Assembly (NCBI GenBank): GCA_009667805.1
Contig: CM019064.1
Location: forward strand, 106,986,328-107,050,327
Reading direction: 5' to 3'
Origin: Leptobrachium leishanense
Taxonomy: Eukaryota > Chordata > Amphibia > Anura > Megophryidae
Length of the DNA: 64,000 bases
This document shows positions 27,181 to 62,064 of the stretch, piece by piece (positions within the stretch are counted from its first letter, which is position 1; every line of letters starts with the position of its first letter). A program made the translations under genes and the position numbers. The notes under the pieces are model-generated. The model was not told the DNA's origin. It worked only from the letters and a program-made list of their open reading frames with translations, and did no database searches.

Positions 27181-28135
27181 GCCAGGGGTGCGGTTAATCC
27201 TAGGATTACCCAGGTAATCCTGACATTACCCAGGTGTCATTAGCAAAATTCCGAAGTGAAATGAAATTTTGGACTTTACCCGGGTAATCTGCAAAGTATC
27301 CAGAGGCTTCTGGATACCCTGATTTTCTGATTTATTTTAACCGGGTAATTCGCACATTACCCTAGTTTTGCTGAATAAAGTGTGATGTGCATCGAAACAT
27401 CGGACTTTATCCGGGTAATCAGCAAAGTATCCAAATGCCTCTGGGTACTCGGGTTTTCTTGGGTTTTCAACAGGTTACAGTTGACTGAATTCTGAGGATT
27501 ACCCGGATAAAGCTGCAAACTGTTATCTGACTGATAACAAAATTGTGTTTTTGGTTATTTTTAATGAAATTGTATCCACAGTCACAAACCACACTAAATA
27601 ACCGTCATGTGACTCTGTGCGTTAACTGTTTGAAAATTAATTTATGAAGATAAAGATATTATATAAAGAGTAACCTAATGGTTATTATGTTTTATAAATG
27701 ATATATAAGCACATATGACACATAATAAAGATCATGTAACTCTTTAACATTCATATTAGAAACATATCCTGTTACTCTGTATATTCATTATATCCGCAAT
27801 ACATTTTAATGTTTGTCTTTTGCCATTTTCGTTGATAATATCCATAGATAATAGCAAAATTCACTGTTATCCAAGCGGGGTTGGATGCTCTGCAGATTAC
27901 CCAGGTGAAGCTGTGGATAGTCCTCTGATTACCCGTGTGAAGCTTCAGACTTGCACATTATCCGGGTAAAGTGCGCATTTTTAAGCACTTCCTGTCACGG
28001 GGACCCAGGGGATGCGGCGCCTGGCAGCAGCTTCCTCGCTGCTCGCTGGCCAGGCGCCGAATGTAAGCGCTTCCGGGCCCGCTCACGTGGGACGCCAAGG
28101 GGCGGGGCCTGGCGCTGTGACGCGGACCCGCCGGG

Positions 28136-28177
28136 TTTAAAAACCAGTCTCTCCCATACACCGGTGCCCTGACGTGG
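28136..28177 (+). promoter_or_regulatory. LTR core promoter and predicted transcript 5' end
   Basis: TTTAAAAA at 28136-28143 is a TATA-like box. About 30 bp downstream begins GCCCTGACGT (28166-28175), which is exactly complementary to the primer-binding site next to the LTR. In self-priming elements this sequence is the first bases of the RNA, so the spacing independently supports a start near 28166. Inference; no transcript data. Confidence 0.6.
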
Positions 28178-28227
28178 TATTCACCTCCCGCAGAGCTCTT
28201 GTGTGATTTTGGCTATCTCCTGTGTTA

Positions 28228-28482
28228 TTCCTGTGTATGACCCTTGGCATTGGCAAAACGAACCCTCCTGTGTATGACCCTTGGCATTGGCAAACGAACC
28301 CTCCTGTGTATAACCCTTGGCATTGGCAAACGAACCCTCCTGTGTATGACCTTTGGCATTGGCAAACGAACCTCCTGTGTATGACCCTGTTGGCCTTGGC
28401 ATTGGCAAACGAACCCTCCTGTGTATGACCTTGGCATTGGCAAACGAACCCTCCTGTGTATGACTCCTGGCATTGGCATTTA
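28228..28482 (+). repeat. 36-bp tandem array in the 5' LTR, about 7 units
   Basis: Units of the type TGTGTATGACCCTTGGCATT + GGCAAACGAACCCTCC. The period is 36, so frames stay open and give spurious 12-residue repeat ORFs on both strands. Some units have small indels, and one carries a 9-bp insertion (TGTTGGCCT) near 28390. The 3' LTR carries a matching but not identical array. Confidence 0.85.
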
Positions 28483-28900
28483 CTCTGTTCTAGGTTCTGC
28501 CCTTAACGTTGGTACCGAGGTCAGTCTGTGTGGCACCCTAAGCACGCATCAGACTACCTCTGCTATTACTAAAGTCATAGGGAGGACTTGTGATCTGGTC
28601 TGTACCCCTGTCTGGTATTTCCCTTTCTTTGTCTATTACCTGTTTCATTGCTTAATAGCTTTGCCGACCATTCAAGGATCGGAAGAGTAGAAAGGGAGCT
28701 GCATAAAGAGAATTATATCTTAGTAGTCAGAAAGATTCGTGACGATACTCTATTCCATACCCCTGTCTGGTGCTACCCCTTGTTTCTATATTGTCTGGTT
28801 ATTTGTCTCTTTAGTATCACCGACCATTCAAGGATCGGAAGGGTAGAGAGCGGTCTGCGTAAAGGGACCACACTTCTGGTTATCAGGGGGATCCGTGACA

Positions 28901-28912
28901 TTACGTCAGGGC
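28901..28912 (+). promoter_or_regulatory. Self-complementary primer-binding site
   Basis: The 12 bases directly after the 5' LTR, TTACGTCAGGGC, do not resemble a tRNA 3' complement (no TGG start). ACGTCAGGGC (28903-28912) is the exact reverse complement of 28166-28175, and the first two T residues can form G.U pairs with 28176-28177. This matches the self-priming arrangement of the Tf1/sushi group, where the RNA 5' end folds back to prime minus-strand DNA. Confidence 0.65.
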
Positions 28913-28914
28913 CA

Positions 28915-29994
28915 ATGGATCCCGCAGACCTCTCTAATCAGCTGGCACGTATCGCAGCCAGACAAGAGGAACAGGACCATAGAATGGACCAGATTTCTCT
29001 CGCTCTGCAAACCCTGCTAAATCGGTCCAATACAGGTACCACAAACCCTCCAGATCCAGTGTCACCTAGGGTCAGTCCGGTCTCCCCTGAAGCACATAGG
29101 CTTAGTATGAAGGCACCCCTACGCTATGATGGTACACCAAGCCTATGTCGGGGGTTTTTGACTCAACTCGAGATTCTGTTTGAGAACAATCCAGGTTCTT
29201 GTATGTCTGATAAAGCTAAAGTAGGATATCTGATTAATCATTTAACAGAAAAAGCTTTATTGTGGGCTACGCCGTTGTGGGAAAATAAAAAACCCATCAT
29301 TTATGACTATGAGGGTTTTACCTCTGAGTTAAAACGTACCTTTGATCCCTCTAGAAGGGCTACCAATGCGGGTAGGTCCTTGTTTCATATCAAACAAGGT
29401 AATAAGAGGGTCGCCGATTATGCCATAGAGTTTAAGACTTTGGTTTCTGAAGTACTTTGGCCGAACGACGTTTTAACCTTAGCCTTTACCGAAGGCTTGA
29501 ATGAGGCTTTTATGTTTGAACTGGCTCCCTTAAAATTACCAGAAAGCCTGGACCACCTGATAGATTTCTGTATAGCCATGGACGATCAAATCAGGGAAAG
29601 GAGACACACCAGAGATAGACCCAGAAGGGTCTTGCCTCCTTTACCCTCGTTACCCAGACACTCCAGTACATCAGGTGGTTCGGAGAATGAAAAAACTGAT
29701 TTACCGGTCGTTGAACCCATGCAAATAGGGAGGACAGGTATTTCAGAAGCAGAAAAAGCTCACAGAAAAGAAAAGGGGCTCTGCTTTTATTGTGCAGGGG
29801 CAGATCACTTCCGCCTTCGATGTCCTCAGAGACCCAGGGTTGGCAGGGTTGAACATAGCAGAGTGGGATTCAGAACAGGAGACACCCAGGTTGTCGGTTC
29901 TCTGTGTGCCTCCTTTATGGAGAATGAAAAAAAAAAAATCCAGGATTCTGTTACCGGTCTCCCTAGCCTGGGAGGGGGTTCACCTCAAGACTGA
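28915..29994 (+). CDS. gag: Gag polyprotein of the chromovirus
   Basis: 359 codons from the ATG 15 bp after the LTR (MDPADLSNQ). This start is preferred because the frame upstream lies in the LTR. An N-terminal segment with a short Gln/Arg-rich helix and a Pro-rich linker (residues 45-60) is followed by the capsid-like Ty3/gypsy Gag region (about 65-235, with YDGTP, FLTQLEILFE and YAIEFKTLV). A basic Arg/Pro-rich stretch follows, then a zinc knuckle CFYCAGADHFRLRC near residues 285-300. Gag coats the genomic RNA and forms the particle. After a run of 12 A residues (29927-29938) the frame drifts to a stop, while protease lies in the +1 frame. The last 25 or so residues are therefore probably not native. 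Confidence 0.85.
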   Translation: MDPADLSNQLARIAARQEEQDHRMDQISLALQTLLNRSNTGTTNPPDPVSPRVSPVSPEAHRLSMKAPLRYDGTPSLCRGFLTQLEILFENNPGSCMSDKAKVGYLINHLTEKALLWATPLWENKKPIIYDYEGFTSELKRTFDPSRRATNAGRSLFHIKQGNKRVADYAIEFKTLVSEVLWPNDVLTLAFTEGLNEAFMFELAPLKLPESLDHLIDFCIAMDDQIRERRHTRDRPRRVLPPLPSLPRHSSTSGGSENEKTDLPVVEPMQIGRTGISEAEKAHRKEKGLCFYCAGADHFRLRCPQRPRVGRVEHSRVGFRTGDTQVVGSLCASFMENEKKKIQDSVTGLPSLGGGSPQD

Positions 29995-30652
29995 GGCGTT
30001 TTTGGACTCTGGGGCCTCAGGCAATTTTATGGATAAGAATTTTGCTGCCAAAAACCTCATACCACTGGTTCTCAGGGAAAGGCCTCTAAGGGTGGAGGCC
30101 ATAGATGGTAACCCTCTGGCATGTCCTCATATCACTCACGATACAGTTGATGTATGTATGAAATTAGGAGTTTTGCACCAGGAGACTATAAGATTTCAAA
30201 TCATTGAATCACCCTCATGTCCTGTCGTCCTTGGGTTTCCATGGCTAACAGAGCACAACCCAGTAGTCGATTGGGTCCAGAGAGACATAAAATGTTGGGG
30301 TCAAAATTGTCAGTCTAAGTGCCTAGGCACAGTTAATGTGATTGGTAGCCTCAATATTGCCACAGCCCCTCCTTTATCCACAGAGGTCCCTGAATGTTAC
30401 CGGGCATTAAAGGAGGTGTTCTCTAAAGCCAGGACTGAGGTTCTACCACCACATCGTCCATATGACTGTGCCATTGACTTGCTCCCCGGTACGATGCCTC
30501 CTAGGGGTCACGTATACCCTTTGTCGCAAAGGGAGAACGACATTATGGAGGAATATATAAGGGAGAATCTGGAACGAGGATTCATTAGACGGTCCTCCTC
30601 CCCAGCAGGAGCAGGTTTCTTTTTTGTCTCCAAAAAAGAGGGAGATCTGTGA
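29939..30652 (+). pseudogene. pol: Pol segment 1: aspartic protease and start of RT
   Basis: Follows gag in the +1 frame. The protease active site FLDSGASGN is at about 30002-30028 (the catalytic Asp codon is 30005-30007), with the ALVLGFPWL-like flap/closing motif decayed to VVLGFPWL at about 30222-30245. The RT thumb/N-terminal signature PPHRPYDCAIDLLPG and the fingers motif (SSPAGAGFFFVSKKEG) precede a TGA at 30650-30652. The stop falls where the family has an Arg codon before PCIDYRGLN, as expected for CpG decay of CGA. Protease would mature Gag-Pol; RT copies the RNA. Confidence 0.85.
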
Positions 30653-31085
30653 CCTTGCATCGACTATAGGGGTTTGAATAGGATCACTATAAGAAATGCA
30701 TATCCCATACCCCTCATAACAGAATTGTTTGACCGATTAAAAGGGGCTCGTGTCTATACTAAGCTTGATTTACGCGGAGCGTACAACCTGGTCAGGGTTA
30801 AGAAGGGAGACGAATGGAAAACGGCTTTTAATACACGTAGCGGGCATTACGAATACCTGGTGATGCCTTTTGGGTTGTGTAATGCGCCAGCCGTCTTTCA
30901 GGACCTTATAAATGACACTCTAAGGGAATTTCTGCAAGAATTCGTCATAGTATATCTGGATGATATCCTGATATACTCTCCTGATATGGACACTCATCAT
31001 GTCCATGTAAAACAAGTGTTGAAAAAACTATTGAAGGCTGGATTGTACTGTAAGCTAGCTAAAATGTCTATTCGACATAGTAACT
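30653..31085 (+). pseudogene. pol: Pol segment 2: reverse transcriptase palm
   Basis: Directly after the stop the same frame continues with [20 protein letters not shown] (first catalytic Asp), [13 protein letters not shown] and the YLDDILIYS box at 30953-30979, which supplies the two metal-binding Asp residues. The frame breaks near 31057-31064, just after the [10 protein letters not shown] motif. The remainder of this ORF to 31138 is out-of-frame read-through. Confidence 0.9.
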
Positions 31086-32159
31086 GTGCAATTCCTTGGT
31101 TATATTATAACTCCTGGGGGGTTTCAAATGGATCCTAAGAAGCTCTCAGCTATTCTTGACTGGCCTTTACCCCAAGGACTTAAAGCCATTCAGAGGTTTC
31201 TGGGGTTCACGAACTATTACAGAAGGTTCATTAAAGATTTTTCGGCCTTGGTGGCCCCCACGGTTATGACAAAGAAAGGGGTGGGAAATCAGAAATGGAC
31301 ACCTCAAGCCACTCAAGCCTTTGAGACACTTAAGCAAGCCTTTACTACTGCTCCTGTTCTCCGGCATCCAGATCCGGCTCTGCCTTTCCAATTAGAAGTT
31401 GACGCCTCCGAACTAGGTCTTGGTGCAGTCTTGTCCCAAAGGGAGGCTCCTGACAAACCCTTGCATCCATGTGGCTTCTATTCTCGAAAGTTGTCCCCGG
31501 CAGAGAAGAACTATGACATTGGAAATAGAGAATTGTTAGCAGTCATCGCGGCCTTGGCCGAATGGAGATACTTATTAGAAGGGTCTAAGGACCCCGTTGT
31601 TATCATAACCGACCATAAGAATCTCACGTACATTGGAGATGCCAAACGTTTAAACTCCAGACAAGCGAGATGGTCATTGTTTCTTTCAAGTTTTAATTAC
31701 GTACTTACCTATAGACCTGGGTCCAGAAACATTAAAGCAGACGCATTGTCGAGACAGTATGAGTCTTATGAACATAATATCCAAGATCAGCATCCCATTG
31801 TACCCCAGGAGAGGATTATAGCCGCTACCACGATTAGTGTTTCGTCTCCTCTAATGAAAAGGTTGCAGACCGTCCAGGGTGCAGCTCCTGGGGGAAAACC
31901 TCCTGCGAAACTCTTTGTACCTGAGAACGAAAGAGAAGAGGTACTCAACATCTATCATGACAATAAAACTTCCGGGCATATGGGTATCACCAAGACTGTG
32001 TCTAGTATCAGTCAACTCCTCTGGTGGCCCACGTTGCGCCGAGACGTCAAAGATTACATTGCCGTGTGCGAAGTGTGCACAAGGCAGAAAAGTCCCAAAA
32101 CAGCACCCATTGGCTTACTCCAGCCTTTGCCGATCCCGAACGACCCTGGTCACATGTAG
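31065..32159 (+). pseudogene. pol: Pol segment 3: RT thumb, RNase H, integrase zinc domain
   Basis: A new frame resumes with [11 protein letters not shown], then the RT connection (FLGFTNYYRRFI). RNase H follows, with EVDASELGLGAVLSQ (Asp), NRELLAVIAAL (Glu) and TDHKNLTYI (Asp), ending at the ALSR site. The integrase N-terminal HHCC zinc-binding domain follows: YHDNKTSGHMG ... CEVCTRQK. A missing base near 32140 shifts the frame, and translation stops at 32157-32159 just before the catalytic core. RNase H removes the RNA template; the zinc domain helps integrase multimerise. Confidence 0.9.
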
Positions 32160-32473
32160 CCATGGATTTTATAGTAGAGCTACCTGAGTCAAGAGGGAAT
32201 ACAGTGATACTTACGATCATAGATCGATTTTCCAAGATGGGTCACTATGTTCCTCTTCAGAAACTACCTTCGGCAGCTGAACTGGTGCCCATATTCATTG
32301 CCAATGTGGTCCGCATTCACGGTGTCCCTCGGGAGATAGTCTCTGATAGGGGGACCCAATTCATCTCCGGATTCTGGAGAGGGTTTTGTAAGAACGTGGG
32401 AATAGACCTCTCTTTCTCTTCGGCCTATCACCCCAGACCAATGGAGCAGCAGAACGAGCAAACCAAAACGTAG
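32141..32473 (+). pseudogene. pol: Pol segment 4: integrase catalytic core
   Basis: Reads VAMDFIVELPES (first catalytic Asp, about 32163-32165), ILTIIDRFSKMGHYVP and IVSDRGTQF (second Asp near 32344), then SSAYHP. A further one-base shift near 32433 puts the third acidic residue in another frame, where GAAERANQ encodes the Glu. The DDE core inserts the DNA copy and cuts the 5-bp staggered target seen as CTTCC. Confidence 0.85.
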
Positions 32474-32946
32474 AAAAATATCTCAGGTGCTTCATCTCAG
32501 AACAACAAGATAACTGGTCAGATCTGTTACCGTGGGCAGAATATGCTATTAACAGCGCAGTAAGTGAATCCACAGGTCATTCTCCTTTCTTCACTGTCTA
32601 TGGCTTTGATCCTCCCGTGCTCCCCGCCACGTTTCCTGATTCCACGATTCCTGCTTTAGATAAACAACTGGCATCATTGAAAGAGACTTGGGGGAGAGTG
32701 AGACGGGCACTGGAGGAAAGTAGTGCCATCCAGAAAACTAAGGCCGACAGACACAGGAGGCAGGCACCCGTGTATCAAGTTGGGGACAGGGTTTGGCTAT
32801 CTTCACGTAATATCAAGCTCTTAGTGCCTTCCATGAAGTTGGCTCCTAGGTATATCGGCCCCTATAAAATTCTACGGCGACTCAACCCTGTCTCCTATGC
32901 TTTGGCGTTACCCCCCATTTTAAAATACATAATGTGTTCCATGTAA
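32434..32946 (+). pseudogene. pol: Pol segment 5: integrase C-terminal region
   Basis: Continues after the shift with the catalytic Glu block, YAINSAVSESTGHSPFF and GFDPPVLP, then the GPY/F-type module (VGDRVWLSSRN ... LAPRYIGPYKILRR). It ends at a frame break around 32915-32925, where the conserved HNVFHVSLLKP motif can be read in the next frame. Confidence 0.85.
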
Positions 32947-33184
32947 ACCTTCTGAAGCCGCTGTTATGTAACCGGTACACCAAAGTCCATGCTCCACCGC
33001 CTCCTGTCTCTGTGGAGGGCGAGGAGGAATTCGAAGTTAAGGCCATTCTGGGCCAGGCTGTCTAGGGGGTCCTTGCAGTATTTGGTCGATTGGGTGGGTT
33101 ACGGTCCGGAGGATCGTTCTTGGATTCCGACTGCAGAGGTCCATGCTCCTAGGCTAGTGAAGGCCTTCTATTTGGCACACCCCC
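32925..33184 (+). pseudogene. pol: Pol segment 6: chromodomain
   Basis: Two frames are needed. The first carries the FHVSLLKPL-type linker and EEEFEVKAIL, the start of a chromodomain. After a 2-bp loss near 33050, the second reads SLQYLVDWVGYGPEDRSWIP and VHAPRLVKAFY. Chromodomains of chromoviral integrases are thought to direct insertion to marked chromatin. The downstream part of ORF 32989-33303 runs into the LTR and is not coding. Confidence 0.85.
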
Positions 33185-33216
33185 GTGCCCCTGGGGGTCG
33201 TCCAGTGGCCGCCCCT

Positions 33217-33226
33217 GGAGGGGGGG
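33217..33226 (+). promoter_or_regulatory. Polypurine tract
   Basis: GGAGGGGGGG, three bases (TTC) before the 3' LTR; the usual RNase H-resistant primer for plus-strand DNA. Confidence 0.8.
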
Positions 33227-33229
33227 TTC

Positions 33230-34131
33230 TGTCACGGGGACCCAGGGGATGCGGCGCCTGGCAGCAGCTTCCTCGCTGCTCGCTGGCCAGGCGCCGAATG
33301 TAAGCGCTTCCGGGCCCGCTCACGTGGGACGCCAAGGGGCGGGGCCTGGGCTGTGACGCGGACCCGCCGGGTTTAAAAACCAGTCTCTCCCATACACCGG
33401 TGCCCTGACGTGGTATTCACCTCCCGCAGAGCTCTTGTGTGATTTTGGCTATCTCCTGTGTTATTCCTGTGTATGACCCTTGGCATTGGCAAACGAACCC
33501 TCCTGTGTATGACCCTTGGCATTGGCAAACGAACCCCTTGTGTATAACCCTTGGCATTGGCAAACGAACCCTCCTGTGTATGACCTTTGGCATTGGCAAA
33601 CGAACCCTCCTGTGTATGACCCTTGGCATTGGCAAACGAACCCTCCTGTGTATGACCCTTGGCATTGGCAAACGAACCCTCCTGTGTATGACTCCTGGCA
33701 TTGGCATTTACTCTGTTCTAGGTTCTGCCCTTAACGTTGGTACCGAGAGGTCAGTCTGTGTGGCACCCTAAGCACGCATCAGACTACCTCTGCTATTACT
33801 AAAGTCATAGGGAGGACTTGTGATCTGGTCTGTACCCCTGTCTGGTATTTCCCTTTCTTTGTCTATTACCTGTTTCATTGCCTTAATAGCTTTGCCGACC
33901 ATTCAAGGATCGGAAGAGTAGAAAGGGAGCTGCATAAAGAGAATTATATCTTAGTAGTCAGAAAGATTCGTGACGATACTCTATTCCATACCCCTGTCTG
34001 GTGCTACCCCTTGTTTCTATATTGTCTGGTTATTTGTCTGTTTAGTATCACCGACCATTCAAGGATCGGAAGGGTAGAGAGCGGTCTGCGTAAAGGGACC
34101 ACACTTCTGGTTATCAGGGGGATCCGTGACA
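33230..34131 (+). repeat. 3' LTR of the chromovirus
   Basis: 902 bp, same termini as the 5' LTR. Differences outside the 36-bp array (33463-33705) are few and mostly single-base indels (for example CTGGCGCTG/CTGGGCTG, ACCGAGG/ACCGAGAGG, TTGCTTAA/TTGCCTTAA). Confidence 0.9.
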
Positions 34132-34328
34132 CTTCCAGACCGTTACCCAAGGGCAGTTGATTAGTCCTAAGATTACCCGGGTAAAGTCCAAAATTTTCAT
34201 TTTTTTGCAGCTTTACCCAGCGGTTTTGGGTGATGTCAGGATTACCTGGGTAATCCTAGGATTAACCGCTCTCCTGGCTTTACCCGTAACATATATATAT
34301 ATAAAAATAATATACAAAGAGAACATAA

Positions 34329-34877: not shown

Positions 34878-36280
34878 ATTTATTTATTTATTTATAAAGG
34901 ATTTTACCAGGAAGGATACATTGAGATTTCTCTCGTTTTCAAGTATGTCCTGGGTTCAAGAACATTGAAGTGTTACAGTTACAGAAATACAAAGTAATAC
35001 AATGCAAGATATTAAAAAACAACACAAATATACAGATTAACTGAAAAATATGTAGGAAATATAGTCACTAGGTTACATGTTTACAGGTGCATTCTGTATT
35101 GAGGTATGTTAGTAAGGAGCTTTTGAGTGACTTAAGACTGGGGGAAGATTTGATGGTGTCTGGGAGGTTATTCCATAATTGTGGTGCTCTGTAGGAAAAT
35201 GAGGACCGAGCCACTGTCTTTTTGTATTGTGGTATAGCAAGTAAGGTGCTGGTCCTGGATCGGAGGTTATAGGATGAGGGAGCTGCTGGGGGAAGCAGTC
35301 TATTCAGGTAGGGTGGCAGCTTCCCAGAGATGCTCTTAAACACCAGGCTGGAAAGGTGAAGGGTGCGTCTGGATTCCAGCGATGGCCAGTTTAGCTCTTT
35401 TAACATGTCACAATGGTGGGTCATGTAGTTACATTGTAGCGCAAAGCGGCACAATGAGTTATACAATGTAGTAAGTTTATGAAGGTGTGTTTGCGGGGCA
35501 GCTGCATACACTACATCTCCGTAATCAATAGCCGGCATAAGCATTTGCTGTACAATCTGCTTTCTTACCGCGGGACTCAGGCAGGATTTGTTTCTGTACA
35601 GGGCACCTAGTTTGGGGTAAAGTTTAGATGAGAGTTTTTCGATGTGGGGGCCAAAGGATAGATTAGGGTCCAACCACATACCTAGATATTTGAGAGAAGT
35701 GACTGTGGTCAGCGTGCCATTTGATTTTGTCCCAACACATAGATGGGGATTTTGCAATTTGTGTAGTTTAGGTGCGGTTCCAAAGAGCATCGTTACAGTT
35801 TTGTCAGTGTTTTAAAAAAGTTTGTTGTTTTTGATCCACTTTTCTACCTCTGTGAATTGTTCTTGCAGCACGGCCTCCAGCTGCGGGAGATTTGGTTTGC
35901 TGGTATAGATCACAGTGTCGTCTGCGTACATATGTACAGTTGAGGCTTTGCAGACGTTGGGCAGATCATTTATGAATATTGTGAACAGCAGGGGGCCTAG
36001 TATTGAGCCTTGGGGTACACCGCAAGTGACTGGGAGCGGGAGGGAGGAGCTGCCAGAAATTGACACATATTGTGATCGGTCGGATACATATGATTGAAAC
36101 CAGGTTAGCGTGCGATCACCAATGCCAGAGTTTTTAAGTTTTTCTAACAAGATGCCATGGTCTACCGTGTCAAAGGCCTTGGCAAAATCAATGAAGATGG
36201 CTCCAGTTAGGTTTCCTTGTTCCATCCCAGCCTGGATATCATTGCAGACTTTTAGAAGGGCGGTTGTTAATGGAGATATA
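34878..36280 (-). pseudogene. L2/Rex1-like LINE, 5'-truncated, RT with one stop
   Basis: The minus-strand frame runs from about 36276 to 35068 with a single in-frame TAA at 35812-35814. RT motifs: GAIFIDFAKAFDTVDHG (first Asp), GVPQGSILGPLLF, and MYADDTVIY (catalytic Asp pair, near 35930). The C-terminal region has FSYRAPQLWNNLPDTIKSS, typical of this LINE group. Endonuclease and ORF start are missing, a normal 5' truncation. The 3' UTR ends with GAGAAATCTCAATGTATCC + TTCCTGGTAAAATCC and a (TAAA)n tail at 34878-34900. That tail is shared with the SINEs at 44.1 and 49.3 kb, so this LINE probably mobilised them. Confidence 0.85.
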
Positions 36281-36689
36281 CAAACTACATCACATTACAC
36301 GTGCGCTAGTACTTCAAGAAACAATTCGAGCCATATATGTGCTGTGAATAGGGATGAGCTGTTCGGTTCGGAGTTCAATTCGAACTTTGGCAGTTCGAAA
36401 GTTCGCGAACTTCGAACATTTCTGCGTGTTCGCCCACAATGCACCACAATGGACCACAATGCACTTTTCCACAGGCCTGAAGCTTGTAATTGGCTACTGC
36501 CTTGCACCTGACCGCAGGTCAGGTGCAAGACAGGTGCAAGACTATGCCAATCACGGCTCAGAGTACTGATTGGGAAAATTTTGCCCAATCATGGGCTCAC
36601 AGAGCTAAGTCCCGCAGCACACTATATAAGGCTTCAGCATGTGTTTTTTTGAGAGGAGATTGTTGTGTTAGTGTGTGTTCTCACCAGCT

Positions 36690-44444: not shown

Positions 44445-46059
<1,615 letters not shown>

Positions 46060-51687: not shown

Positions 51688-52164
51688 TTTGTCATGTTCC
51701 TCAAGACACTGCTGAGTAATAGTGCAGTATGGTTACTGTTTCTGCTAGTTTTATGATTGGCGTTATGGTTTACCATTCCTTGAATTACTTTTGATATTCT
51801 GTATTAGTCTGAAAAGATCTGTTTACATTTGGATTCTATATTTTTTAAATCAATTTGGTTCAGACATTGGCAATCGAATTGGTCCGTTTTGCAATTGATT
51901 CAGCTGACTATCGATTCAGTCCAAACCAAATCACATTTGTCTAGGAATGATTTTGATACTGCCTGGAAAAGTAACTGGCTTGAAGAATGTTGCAATTGTA
52001 ACCTGAAGTTAATCACACTGTGTTCATGTGATTATTTCCAAATTATATATACAGTATATATATTTTTTTAAACTGGAGACCTCTTATCATTTCTCAACAG
52101 ATCAGATTCTAAATTTGTAGGTTTTACATCTGGCTATAGAAAAAACATGCCATAGCTTTAGAAT

Positions 52165-53982
52165 TAATGATTCAGTCAGTAAAAAAGGGGGACAAAACAT
52201 TTTTTAGATACATAAACGAGAAAAGAAAAGTAAAACAAGGATTAGTTAGATTAAAAACAAAGGAAGGAAGGTATGTAGAAGAGGATAAAAGTCTCGCTGA
52301 CTGCCTCAATGAATATTTTTGTTCAGTCTTTGCAGAAGAAAAGGAAGGAAAGGGACCTCAGTTAGGAGGAAACACTAACGAGACATTTACATATCAGTTT
52401 ACAGAGGAGGAGGTTCTACAGCAGCTGTCTAAAGTAAAGACAAATAAGTCAATGGGGCCTGATGGGATCCACCCTAAATTATTAAAAGAGCTCAGTGATG
52501 TAATAGCAAAACCGTTAACAGATTTATTTAACCAATCCTTGCTAACGGGAGTCGTCCCAGAAGACTGGAAATTAGCAAATGTTGTGCCCATTCACAAGAC
52601 GGGTAGTAGGGAGGAATCTGGGAACTATAGGCCAGTTAGTTTTACGTCAGTAGTGGGGAAATTAATGGAAACCATGTTAAAGGAAAGGATTGTTGAACAT
52701 CTAAAAACACATAGATTACAGGATCAGAAACAACATGGGTTTACCTCAGGGAGATCATGCCAAACTAATCTTATTGATTTTTTTGATTGAGTAACAAAAA
52801 TAATAGACACAGGTGGTGCAGTAGACATTGCTTATTTAGATTTCAGTAAGGCTTTTGATACTGTTCCGCATAGAAGGCTTATCAATAAATTGCAATCTTG
52901 GAGCTTGGATTCCAATATTGTTGAATGGATTAGGCAGTGGCTGAGTGACAGGCAACAGAGGGTTGTGGTAAATGGAGTTTATTCGGCGCAAGGTCTTGTT
53001 ACCAGTGGGGTACCTCAGGCGTCAGTACTTGGTCCCATTCTATTTAATATTTTTATTAGTGATATTGCAGAAGGTATTAATGGAAAAGTATGTCTTTTTG
53101 CTGATGACGCAAAGATTTGCAACAGGGTTGACGTTCCTGGAGGGATCAGCCAAATGACAAATGATTTAGGTAAACTAAAAAAATGGTCGGAGCTGTGGCA
53201 ATTGAGTTTTAATGTGGATAAGTGCAAGATAATGCACCTGGGACGTAAAAACCCAAGGGCTGAATATAGAATATTTGATACAGTCCTAACCTCAACATCT
53301 GAGGAAAGGGATTTAGGGGTTATTATTGCAGAGGATCTAAGGGTAAGTAGTCAATGTAATAGAGCAGCAGGAAATGCTAGCAGAATGCTTGGTTGTGTAG
53401 GGAGAGGCATTAGCAGTAGGAAAAGGGAAGTGCTCATGCCACTGTACAGAGCACTGGTGAGACCTCACTTTGAGTACTGTGTGCAGTAGTAGGATATAGA
53501 CATCTTAGAGAGAGTTCAGAGAAGGGCTACTAAAATGGTGTACGGCTTGAAGGAGAAAAGTTACCAGGAAAGGCTTAATGATCTTAACATGTACAGCTTG
53601 GAAAAAAGACGAGACAGAGGAGATATGATAGAAACATTTAAATACGTAAAGGGAATCCACAAGGTAGAGGAAGGGAGTATAATTAAAAGTAAACAAAGTA
53701 GCAAAACAAGAGGACATAGTCTTAGATTAGAGGGGCAAAGGTTTAAAAGTAACATCAGAAAGCATTATTTTACTGAGAGGGTGGTGGATACATGGAACAG
53801 TCTTCCAGTTGAAGTGGTAGAGGCCAAAACAGTAATTGAATTTAAGCAAGCATGGGATAGGCATAAGGCTTTCCTAAACAAAAGATAAATCCAGGTAAAG
53901 TATCCATGTAATTGGGCAGACTAGATGGGCCGGAAGGTTCTTATCTGCCGACATTTTTCTATGTTTCTATGTTTCTATATGT
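52165..53982 (+). pseudogene. CR1-type LINE, 5'-truncated, RT ORF with two stops
   Basis: One frame from 52167 to 53888 interrupted by TGA (52788-52790) and TAG (53487-53489). It starts in the linker before RT (FFRYINEKRK). RT motifs follow: GPDGIHPKLLKELS, NYRPVSFTSVVGK, IAYLDFSKAFDTVPH (first Asp), GVPQASVLGPILF and LFADDAKI (catalytic Asp pair). Also present are LYRALVRPHFEYCVQ and the C-terminal KHYFTERVVDTWNSLPVEVV block typical of CR1. The 3' end has GGGCAGACTAGATGGGCCGG and a (TTTCTATG)n tail, the diagnostic CR1 3' microsatellite. Endonuclease is missing through 5' truncation. Confidence 0.9.
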
Positions 53983-60130: not shown

Positions 60131-62064
60131 TGTAAGGTCTCACGCCGCCATACTGTATCGCCATAGTATTCCATTTCTACATGTTCCGGGGTTCCAGCAC
60201 AGCTATGTAACATCCACAGATGCTTTCATTATCAGCCCTGTGCTTCACCATAAAAGGGTGGAGTACCCATAACTCCTTGCTTCTTCATTATTCTTCAGTC
60301 AGCCACTTACCTTGAGATAAGCAAGAAGTCTATCTACAGTTCCTGGGTACGGTTAACCCTTCTACAGTTCCTGGGTACGTTAACCATTCTACAGTCCCTG
60401 GCTACGGTTTACCCTTCTACAGTCCCTGGCTACGGTTAACCCTTCTACAGTTCCTGGGTACGGTTAACCATTCTACAGTCCCTGGCTACGGTTTACCCTT
60501 CTACAGTCCCTGGCTACGGTTAACCCTTCTACAGTTCCTGGGTACGGTTAACCATTCTACAGTTCCTGGCTACGGTTAACCCTTCTACAGTTCCTGGCTA
60601 CGGTTAACCCTTCTACAGTTCCTTGCTACGGTTAACCCTTCTACAGTTCCTGGGTACGGTTAACCATTCTACAGTTCCTGGCTACGGTTAACCCTTCTAC
60701 ATTCCTGGGTACGGTTAACCCTTCTACAGTTCCTGGGTACGGTTAACCATTCTACAGTTCCTGGCTACGGTTAACCCTTCTACAGTTTCTGGCTACGGTT
60801 AACCCTTCTACAGTTCCTTGCTACGGTTAACCCTTCTACAGTTCCTTGCTACGGTTAACCCTTCTACAGTTCCTGGGTACGGTTAACCCTTCTACAGTCC
60901 CTGACTACAGTTAACCCTTCTACAGTTCCTGGCTACGGTTAACCCTTCTACAGTCCCTGGCTACCGTTAACCCTTCTACAGTTCCTGGCTATGGTTAACC
61001 CTTCCACAGTTCCTGGGTACAGTTAACCATTCTACAGTCCCTGGTTATGGTTAACCCTTCTACAGTTCCTGGGTACGGTTAACCATTCTACAGTTCCTGG
61101 CTACGGTTAACCCTTCTACAGTTCCTGGGTACGGTTAATCATTCTATAGTTCCTGGCTACGGTTAACCCTTCTACAGTTCCTGGCTACGGTTAACCCTTC
61201 TACAGTTCCTGGCTACGGTTAACCCTTCTACAGTTCCTGGGTACGGTTAATCATTCTATAGTTCCTGGCTACGGTTAACCCTTCTACAGTTCCTGGCTAC
61301 GGTTAACCCTTCTACAGTTCCTGGCTACGGTTAACCCTTCTACAGTTCCTGGGTACGGTTAACCATTCTACAGTTCCTGGGTACGGTTAACCCTTCTACA
61401 GTTCCTGGCTACGATTAACTCTTCTACAGTTCCTGGCTACAGTTAACCCTTCTACAGTCCCTGGCTACGGTTAACCCTTCTACAGTTCCTGGCTACGGTT
61501 AACCCTTCTACAGTCCCTGGCTACCGTTAACCCATCTACAGTTCCTGGCAATGGTTAACCCTTCCACAGTTCCTGGCTACGGTTAACCCTTCTACAGTTC
61601 CTAGCTATGGTTAACCCTTCTAAAGTTCCTGGGTACGGTTATCCACATCTACAGCTCCTGGCTACGGTTATTCCCATCCACAGTTCCTGCATACAGATAC
61701 CTTCTTCAAGACCCTTTGCTTACAAGAACTCTATGCTTCCAAGGACCCTCTGCTTATAAGACCCTCTACCTCCATATACCCCTCTGTTACTAGTTTCTTC
61801 TAACCTCTGTGCCCTCCTGTGAATGTCTTGTGTATTTGTTTCTGCTCCTTTCAATCAGCTTATTGTGTCCTATCTCTGCAGTCATTTATTGCTCCATTCC
61901 TGTTATTTCATTTATTTGGTAAACTTGTGCTTATTTCTTTTGTTCTGTTATAGTTCTGGTTTGCAGTCTTTGTGTTTGCAAATAAACTCCTTATTTCTTA
62001 TCCATTTGCTTAGTCATTGCAAATTGGGCTCCTTTTCCTGCCACCCCGGAACCAGCTCGTTACA
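60131..62064 (+). mobile_element. 1.93-kb solo LTR, largely minisatellite
   Basis: TGTAAGGTCTCACG ... CAGCTCGTTACA with a perfect 5-bp duplication CAGAA (60126-60130, 62065-62069). TATA-like CATAAAAGG is at 60249-60257 and AATAAA at 61981-61986. The 28-bp array fills most of the space between them, that is, the predicted R/transcribed part. Family not identified. Confidence 0.8.
60335..61695 (+). repeat. 28-bp minisatellite, about 48 units
   Basis: Unit CTACAGTTCCTGGCTACGGT + TAACCCTT with regular variants (GGGTACGG, TTAACCATT, AGTCCC). The variants recur in blocks, for example GGTTAATCATTCTATAG at 61134 and 61246, showing higher-order amplification. Each unit has the palindrome GTTAAC. Confidence 0.9.

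Follow-up and report, generated by a model that had tools for sequence, protein, structure and literature searches.

Covarying 5' tip and primer-binding site point to self-priming in chromoviruses of the toad Leptobrachium leishanense

The window analyzed here is a stretch of 64,000 nucleotides from the 3.54-Gb genome of Leptobrachium leishanense (G000:C2:106986328-107050327), and the element occupying positions 27993-34131 of this window is a Ty3-type chromovirus. Its features, with those of its immediate borders, are as follows.

27988-27992, no strand assigned: target site duplication of 5 bp, CTTCC, with a second copy at 34132-34136
27993-28900, + strand: 5' LTR, 908 bp, TGTCAC...GTGACA
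28136-28143, + strand: TATA-like box, TTTAAAAA
28166-28175, + strand: putative self-primer, GCCCTGACGT, presumably the first 10 nt of the RNA
28229-28478, + strand: tandem array of a 36-bp unit, 6.8 copies, with CATTGGC seven times inside
28847-28859, + strand: U5 arm, AGAGCGGTCTGCG, of a U5-IR-like stem that brackets the primer-binding site
28901-28902, + strand: TT separating the LTR end from the primer-binding site, read from the sequence; probably the 2 nt removed by integrase
28903-28912, + strand: primer-binding site (PBS), ACGTCAGGGC
28915-29994, + strand: gag (Retrotrans_gag, Ty3_capsid), its ATG 2 nt past the PBS
28923-28935, + strand: gag-side arm, CGCAGACCTCTCT, of the U5-IR-like stem
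29792-30652, + strand: ORF piece, aspartyl protease (RVP_2; Pfam)
30674-31138, + strand: ORF piece, reverse transcriptase (RVT_1; Pfam)
31086-32159, + strand: ORF piece, RNase H and integrase zinc-binding domain (Pfam)
32024-32473, + strand: ORF piece, integrase core (rve; Pfam)
32617-32946, + strand: ORF piece, SH3_Tf2-1 domain (Pfam)
32989-33303, + strand: ORF piece, chromodomain (Pfam)
33217-33226, + strand: polypurine tract, GGAGGGGGGG, by inspection
33230-34131, + strand: 3' LTR, 902 bp, TGTCAC...GTGACA, containing the primer sequence at 33402-33411

The domains, identified with Pfam in seven separate ORF pieces, follow the order gag, protease, RT, RNase H, integrase, SH3_Tf2-1, chromodomain, and this Ty3-type arrangement with a chromodomain after the integrase (E 5.1e-6; 26.7 bits vs a cut-off of 25.1) is the one expected of Tf1/sushi chromoviruses. 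The pol reading frames were left as sequenced, with no breaks mended, and the breaks may in part reflect assembly error. Aligned over 913 columns, the two LTRs show 2 substitutions and 8 indel blocks, six of the eight blocks being single-base indels; judged from the LTR substitutions, the insertion appears to be young. The gag product shares 96% identity with a L. leishanense protein, and among the 120 relatives listed of 1843 for the RNase H/integrase piece, four, all from the fish Labeo rohita, carry names of the form 'Transposon Tf2-... polyprotein'. Scans of IMG/VR with the RT piece and with a gag alignment returned no relatives. The gag frame also stays open in the 5' direction into the LTR (28594-29994), and the 598-aa UniRef protein P0001 is probably annotated as too long, since its start falls in LTR array sequence. 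Elsewhere in the window lie an open frame of 337 aa that carries domains of a Tc1-like transposase (HTH_Tnp_Tc3_2, DDE_3; 44663-45676, - strand), RVT_1 open frames from other retroelements (35812-36294, - strand; 52140-53489, + strand) and a satellite-like array of a 28-bp unit (60333-61689; 48.5 copies, 90% matches).

An earlier, sequence-only reading of this DNA proposed that the bases following the 5' LTR are the exact reverse complement of a stretch lying some 30 bp behind a TATA-like box, and that the element primes reverse transcription with its own folded RNA. The match holds in coordinates and letters alike: GCCCTGACGT at 28166-28175 is the exact reverse complement of ACGTCAGGGC at 28903-28912, which begins two nt beyond the end of the 5' LTR, and on both strands of the whole window the 10-mer or its complement has exact matches only at these two places and at 33402-33411. 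The spacing is likewise as described, the first base of TTTAAAAA (28136-28143) lying 30 nt before the primer, and the two additional G.U pairs that had been noticed are present within a pairing that reaches 13 bp (28166-28178 with 28900-28912; pairs 11-13 are G.U, G.U and U-A). This 13-bp helix closes the minimum-energy fold of 28166-28930; the whole fold is not more stable than those of shuffles (z = +1.72).

Might two unrelated 10-mers be complementary by chance? Inverted repeats of 10 nt are common, in that for 744 of the 62,900 positions in the window an exact reverse complement of 10 nt occurs within the preceding 910 nt, and because 89 of 20,000 dinucleotide-shuffled LTRs give at least 10 exact paired bases at an offset of 0-3, the 10-mer match on its own provides weak, suggestive evidence. 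The expectation is about 1e-4 under the dinucleotide model once the primer start must fall in a 17-position window behind TTTAAA. Chance is contradicted, and can be dismissed as exceedingly improbable, because a comparison of families, described below, shows three versions of the pair matched at the same two places.

Copies of the element's own family, designated A, were sampled by scoring 40 among 1354 first-look candidates (L019 is the window's own copy). The PBS is identical in all 40 (30/30 and 10/10), a count biased by the presence of the PBS in the query, and the primer was found in 30/30 copies with an anchor that included its first three letters and then in 9/10, L037 being the one copy in which no hit was obtained. 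Since family A copies are near-identical, no compensatory changes were seen within the family. Families B, C and D were reached with gag queries P0003, P0006 and P0005, respectively, for which 79, 126 and 127 were scored among 31,180, 25,276 and 23,844 first-look candidates, sets that overlap and are not copy counts; 30 loci, 10 stretches and 22 stretches were fetched. Query P0010 (87 scored among 14,037) was tried as a source of a fifth family, and its four fetched stretches all proved to be family C.

Family B copies were picked by gag and not by PBS. The PBS TTACGTCAGGGC is nevertheless present in 30/30 fetched copies, as is the primer GCCCTGACGTGG, located by its complementarity, such that families A and B have one primer/PBS pair in common. 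The spacer between TTTAAA and the primer has diverged from that of family A while the primer is kept; TTTAAA itself occurs in 29 of the 30 copies, with TTTATAA in L048. Two family B gag copies, L053 and L054 (G000:C3:25040040 and 25045121), lie about 5.1 kb apart, and L054 contains an open frame of 3017 aa, suggestive of read-through from one tandem element to the next across an LTR common to both.

Families C and D carry different pairs, GCCCTTTCGT/ACGAAAGGGC and GCCCTAGCGT/ACGCTAGGGC, respectively. Specifically, family C has the PBS TCACGAAAGGGC (ACACGAAAGGGC in L074) and the primer GCCCTTTCGTGG, with 10/10 Watson-Crick pairs in 13 of 14 copies (9/10 from P0006, 4/4 from P0010) and one mismatch in L073. 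In family D, where the commonest PBS is TTACGCTAGGGC and the primer is GCCCTAGCGTGG, LTR context could be identified for 18 of the 22 stretches (absent for L082, L083, L086 and L096), and all 10 pairs are Watson-Crick in 14 of these 18; the second 12 stretches were chosen partly to follow a variant first seen in L087. Given that L087, L091 and L092 share their 5' flank, they are counted as one insertion, and with the three merged the pairing is perfect in 12/16 copies, further duplicates not having been checked for all. The imperfect family D copies have one U.G pair (L081), one mismatch (L085 and L093, one each) or two (L088), and, together with L073, are as expected of later decay of insertions. 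For 18 D and 10 C copies, flanking context served to locate primer and PBS, the context itself coming from copies that complementarity had first revealed. TTTAAA is present in the C and D copies in which the LTR context was found, and the primer lies 28 nt behind it in C and 30 nt in D.

Compensatory changes between the two 10-mers had been proposed as a check of the pairing, and across families they are found. Pairs 6 and 7 differ on both sides, reading G-C/A-T in A and B, T-A/T-A in C and A-T/G-C in D. Additionally, within family D the L087 insertion has a matched change at pair 3, and L089 has one at pair 9, each on both sides; the letters concerned in L089 are CpG positions, and two separate losses might account for that match. 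Among 12 distinct primer/PBS types, from which the four family D copies without LTR context were omitted, 10 cells are changed on both sides against 2.2 expected, 95.1% of cells are paired against 87.1% in shuffles, and the covariation score comes to 0.266, the shuffles giving 0.112; each of these three values is reached by 0/500 shuffles, although the shuffles ignore kinship and about four independent events are counted (two between families, L087 and L089). Pairs changed on both sides number four, a count that 20/500 shuffles reach, and further pair types number eight, a count that 138/500 reach. Structures slid out of register are 27.8-51.7% paired. Between A and either C or D, the flanking LTR aligns poorly, yet 10/12 primer letters agree and TTTAAA is kept; in gapped global alignments that used a single copy per family and no shuffled control, A and C agree in 35/69 columns over the 60 nt preceding the primer, in 37/66 over the 60 nt that follow the primer and in 45/85 at the LTR end. 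These comparisons show the putative tip and the PBS remaining matched while the families diverge.

The same comparison bears on whether the 10-mers are a DNA site for a protein, occurring near the promoter and near the LTR end by coincidence. Such a site could be sought in the TGACGT within GCCCTGACGTGG, which resembles a CRE/ATF half site, but a binding site predicts a single conserved motif rather than covarying letters, and the corresponding letters in families C and D are TTTCGTGG and TAGCGTGG, to which the PBS has changed in step, leaving this explanation very unlikely.

For most LTR elements, priming by a tRNA is the rule, and a host tRNA might likewise prime here, with the LTR match incidental. 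A TGG, as such priming would call for, is indeed present at 28916, but it belongs to the gag start ATGG, 15 nt beyond the LTR; no TGG occurs within 15 bases past the LTR, in line with the sequence-only reading, which noted no tRNA-like TGG start. A tRNA 3' end that fits the site better, named in advance as grounds for abandoning self-priming, was sought among 20 of the 61 tRNA genes listed for the same genome (mostly entries near its top, with types missing), with CCA added and 18 start positions each, and none emerged. The best 3'-anchored 12-nt match is 8/12 for A/B, at the gag-start TGG, and for D, and 7/12 for C; none of the 20 genes contains an exact complement of any PBS 10-mer, the best being 6/10 for A/B, 8/10 for C and 6/10 for D. 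Assignment to the tRNA-primed Ty3/gypsy elements was thus rejected, there being no TGG beside the LTR and, among these 20 genes, no tRNA 3'-end match. A stronger argument than this incomplete set of tRNAs is the covariation of the site with the LTR, which is not expected from a tRNA, and a host tRNA primer is accordingly judged highly improbable.

Taken together, the covariation, the spacing of the primer behind TTTAAA and the lack of a better match in 20 tRNA genes support the proposal that the element self-primes, and reverse transcription of the self-primed Tf1/sushi type appears well supported, with a probability of roughly 90% as judged from sequence comparison. The promoter with its TTTAAA box would start the transcript at about 28166, a position presumably set by the pairing, such that the RNA would begin GCCCUGACGU. 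The 5' tip of this RNA would then fold onto the PBS just beyond the LTR, a pairing that both sequence and covariation show. By analogy with Tf1, the element's RNase H would cut the RNA and free the tip, and the 3' end of the freed tip would prime minus-strand DNA.

The cut likely falls after nucleotide 10, because pairs 11 and 12 are mostly G.U. The PBS-side letters opposite primer letters 11-12 (GG) are TT in A, B and D and TC in C (AC in L074), and the primer of L100, a family D copy, reads GT at these letters. A 12-nt primer copied into the PBS would give CC; other letters are seen, and a primer of about 10 nt therefore fits. The data would fit a 10-nt primer (10 or 11 in C) followed by a 2-nt spacer that is trimmed by integrase after CA.

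Two accounts of how primer and PBS stay matched can be weighed. The PBS may have no inheritance of its own and be rewritten in every cycle from the RNA 5' tip, through copying of the primer into the plus strand, primer and PBS evolving as one 10-nt unit, an account given not quite even odds. Copying of the primer would yield matched variants such as those of L087 and L089 from one mutation, with no need of another, and these variants, together with the predominance of G.U in the pairs immediately beyond the 10 nt, would be its footprint, an interpretation offered tentatively. On the same conjectural footing, nearly as likely to hold as to fail, the middle of the unit would drift freely (GCCCT-NN-CGT), its ends being constrained by where the promoter starts transcription and where RNase H cuts. 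Alternatively, the pairing may be real and needed but kept by ordinary compensatory selection, as covariation arises in any needed helix and imperfect copies do exist. Against this stand the two family D insertions with exactly matched single changes, as well as the scarcity of G.U within pairs 1-10, which selection would tolerate and which is seen in only 1/18 D copies (L081); compensatory selection thus remains a serious, if somewhat doubtful, explanation.

Beyond the primer helix, a U5-IR-like stem brackets the PBS in the window, 28847-28859 pairing with 28923-28935 at 12 of 13 positions, a level reached by 2/2000 shuffles; its 3' arm lies in gag codons. Family B keeps GGTCTGCG in 24/30 copies, the other 6/30 having two internal A-C mismatches, while family D has GTCTGCA/TGCAGAC in the same place in 20/22 stretches, one closing pair being changed on both sides relative to A, from G-C to A-T. 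A search of four family C copies for a U5-IR-like stem with 7 exact pairs found none, L072 yielding only an unrelated 7-mer, and a U5-IR common to all families is retained only in part, for A, B and D. A separate observation concerns two near-identical 14-mers, TCCCGCAGAGCTCT after the primer (28186-28199) and TCCCGCAGACCTCT after the PBS (28920-28933), which could compete for one U5 arm.

A candidate for a third duplex is provided by the 36-bp array, present within both LTRs (28229-28478 and 33465-33706), whose seven CATTGGC motifs are complementary to GCCAATG at the 3' end of the PBS (28911-28917). The motif occurs 4-9 times in 30 family A copies and 3-7 times in 30 family B copies, and in these families the array may offer several extra docking sites beside the PBS. 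The CATTGGC/GCCAATG partners have no counterpart in the copies checked from families C and D, four of each, and for this reason the third duplex was dropped as a general feature. The so-called pretzel RNA is recovered in part: the primer/PBS helix and the U5-IR-like stem have support in A, B and D, and the third candidate has none outside A and B. Tandem arrays were also noted in L084 of family D (293-524; 30-bp unit, just after TGTCACGG at the probable LTR start) and in L072 of family C (172-480; 28-bp unit, just before a TGTCACG).

The mechanism itself is already known, and the toad element is a new, well-supported example of a self-primed Tf1/sushi element. For the vertebrate Tf1/sushi group, of which sushi-ichi is a member, the source cited in three papers (PMC4600332, PMC6317226, PMC10085805) is Butler et al. 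2001. The toad families resemble this group in vertebrate host, chromodomain and proposed self-priming. The 36-bp array carried in the toad LTR may be a difference, and the likeness is one of domains and PBS.

Self-priming by Tf1 has been demonstrated in yeast and implicated in relatives up to vertebrates (PMC4600332), and the first 11 bases of the RNA serve as primer, the cut falling between 11 and 12 (PMC7175516). Like Tf1 of Schizosaccharomyces pombe, the toad element has presumed first RNA bases complementary to the PBS, a chromodomain integrase and, in part, a U5-IR-like stem. In contrast to the 11-base primer given for Tf1, the mostly G.U pairs 11-12 in the toad suggest a 10-nt primer with a 2-nt spacer. 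A three-duplex structure is needed by Tf1 RNA and is possible for several Tf1/sushi RNAs (PMC10085805). For Tj1 of S. japonicus and the Tosmo/Tcry elements, a 'pretzel' RNA has been proposed and the PBS is complementary to a part of the LTR regarded as the start of the RNA, which is the arrangement seen in the toad (PMC4600332, PMC10085805). Tj1 and Tosmo/Tcry differ in being fungal and in that each was considered able to form the three-duplex structure, against two supported duplexes in some toad families.

No covariation test of vertebrate self-primers was found among titles and the beginnings of abstracts, a search that Butler 2001 and Lin and Levin 1997 fell outside. The occurrence of several gag families in large numbers in one toad genome constitutes a natural experiment, in which primer, PBS, transcript start and cut can be read from covariation, and it allows a direct test, on genomes and RNA data that already exist, of how a self-primer and its PBS stay matched. 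Retroviruses regenerate their PBS by copying the tRNA primer. The toad families are alike in that the letters of the PBS follow the primer used, and unlike in that this primer is encoded in the element's own LTR.
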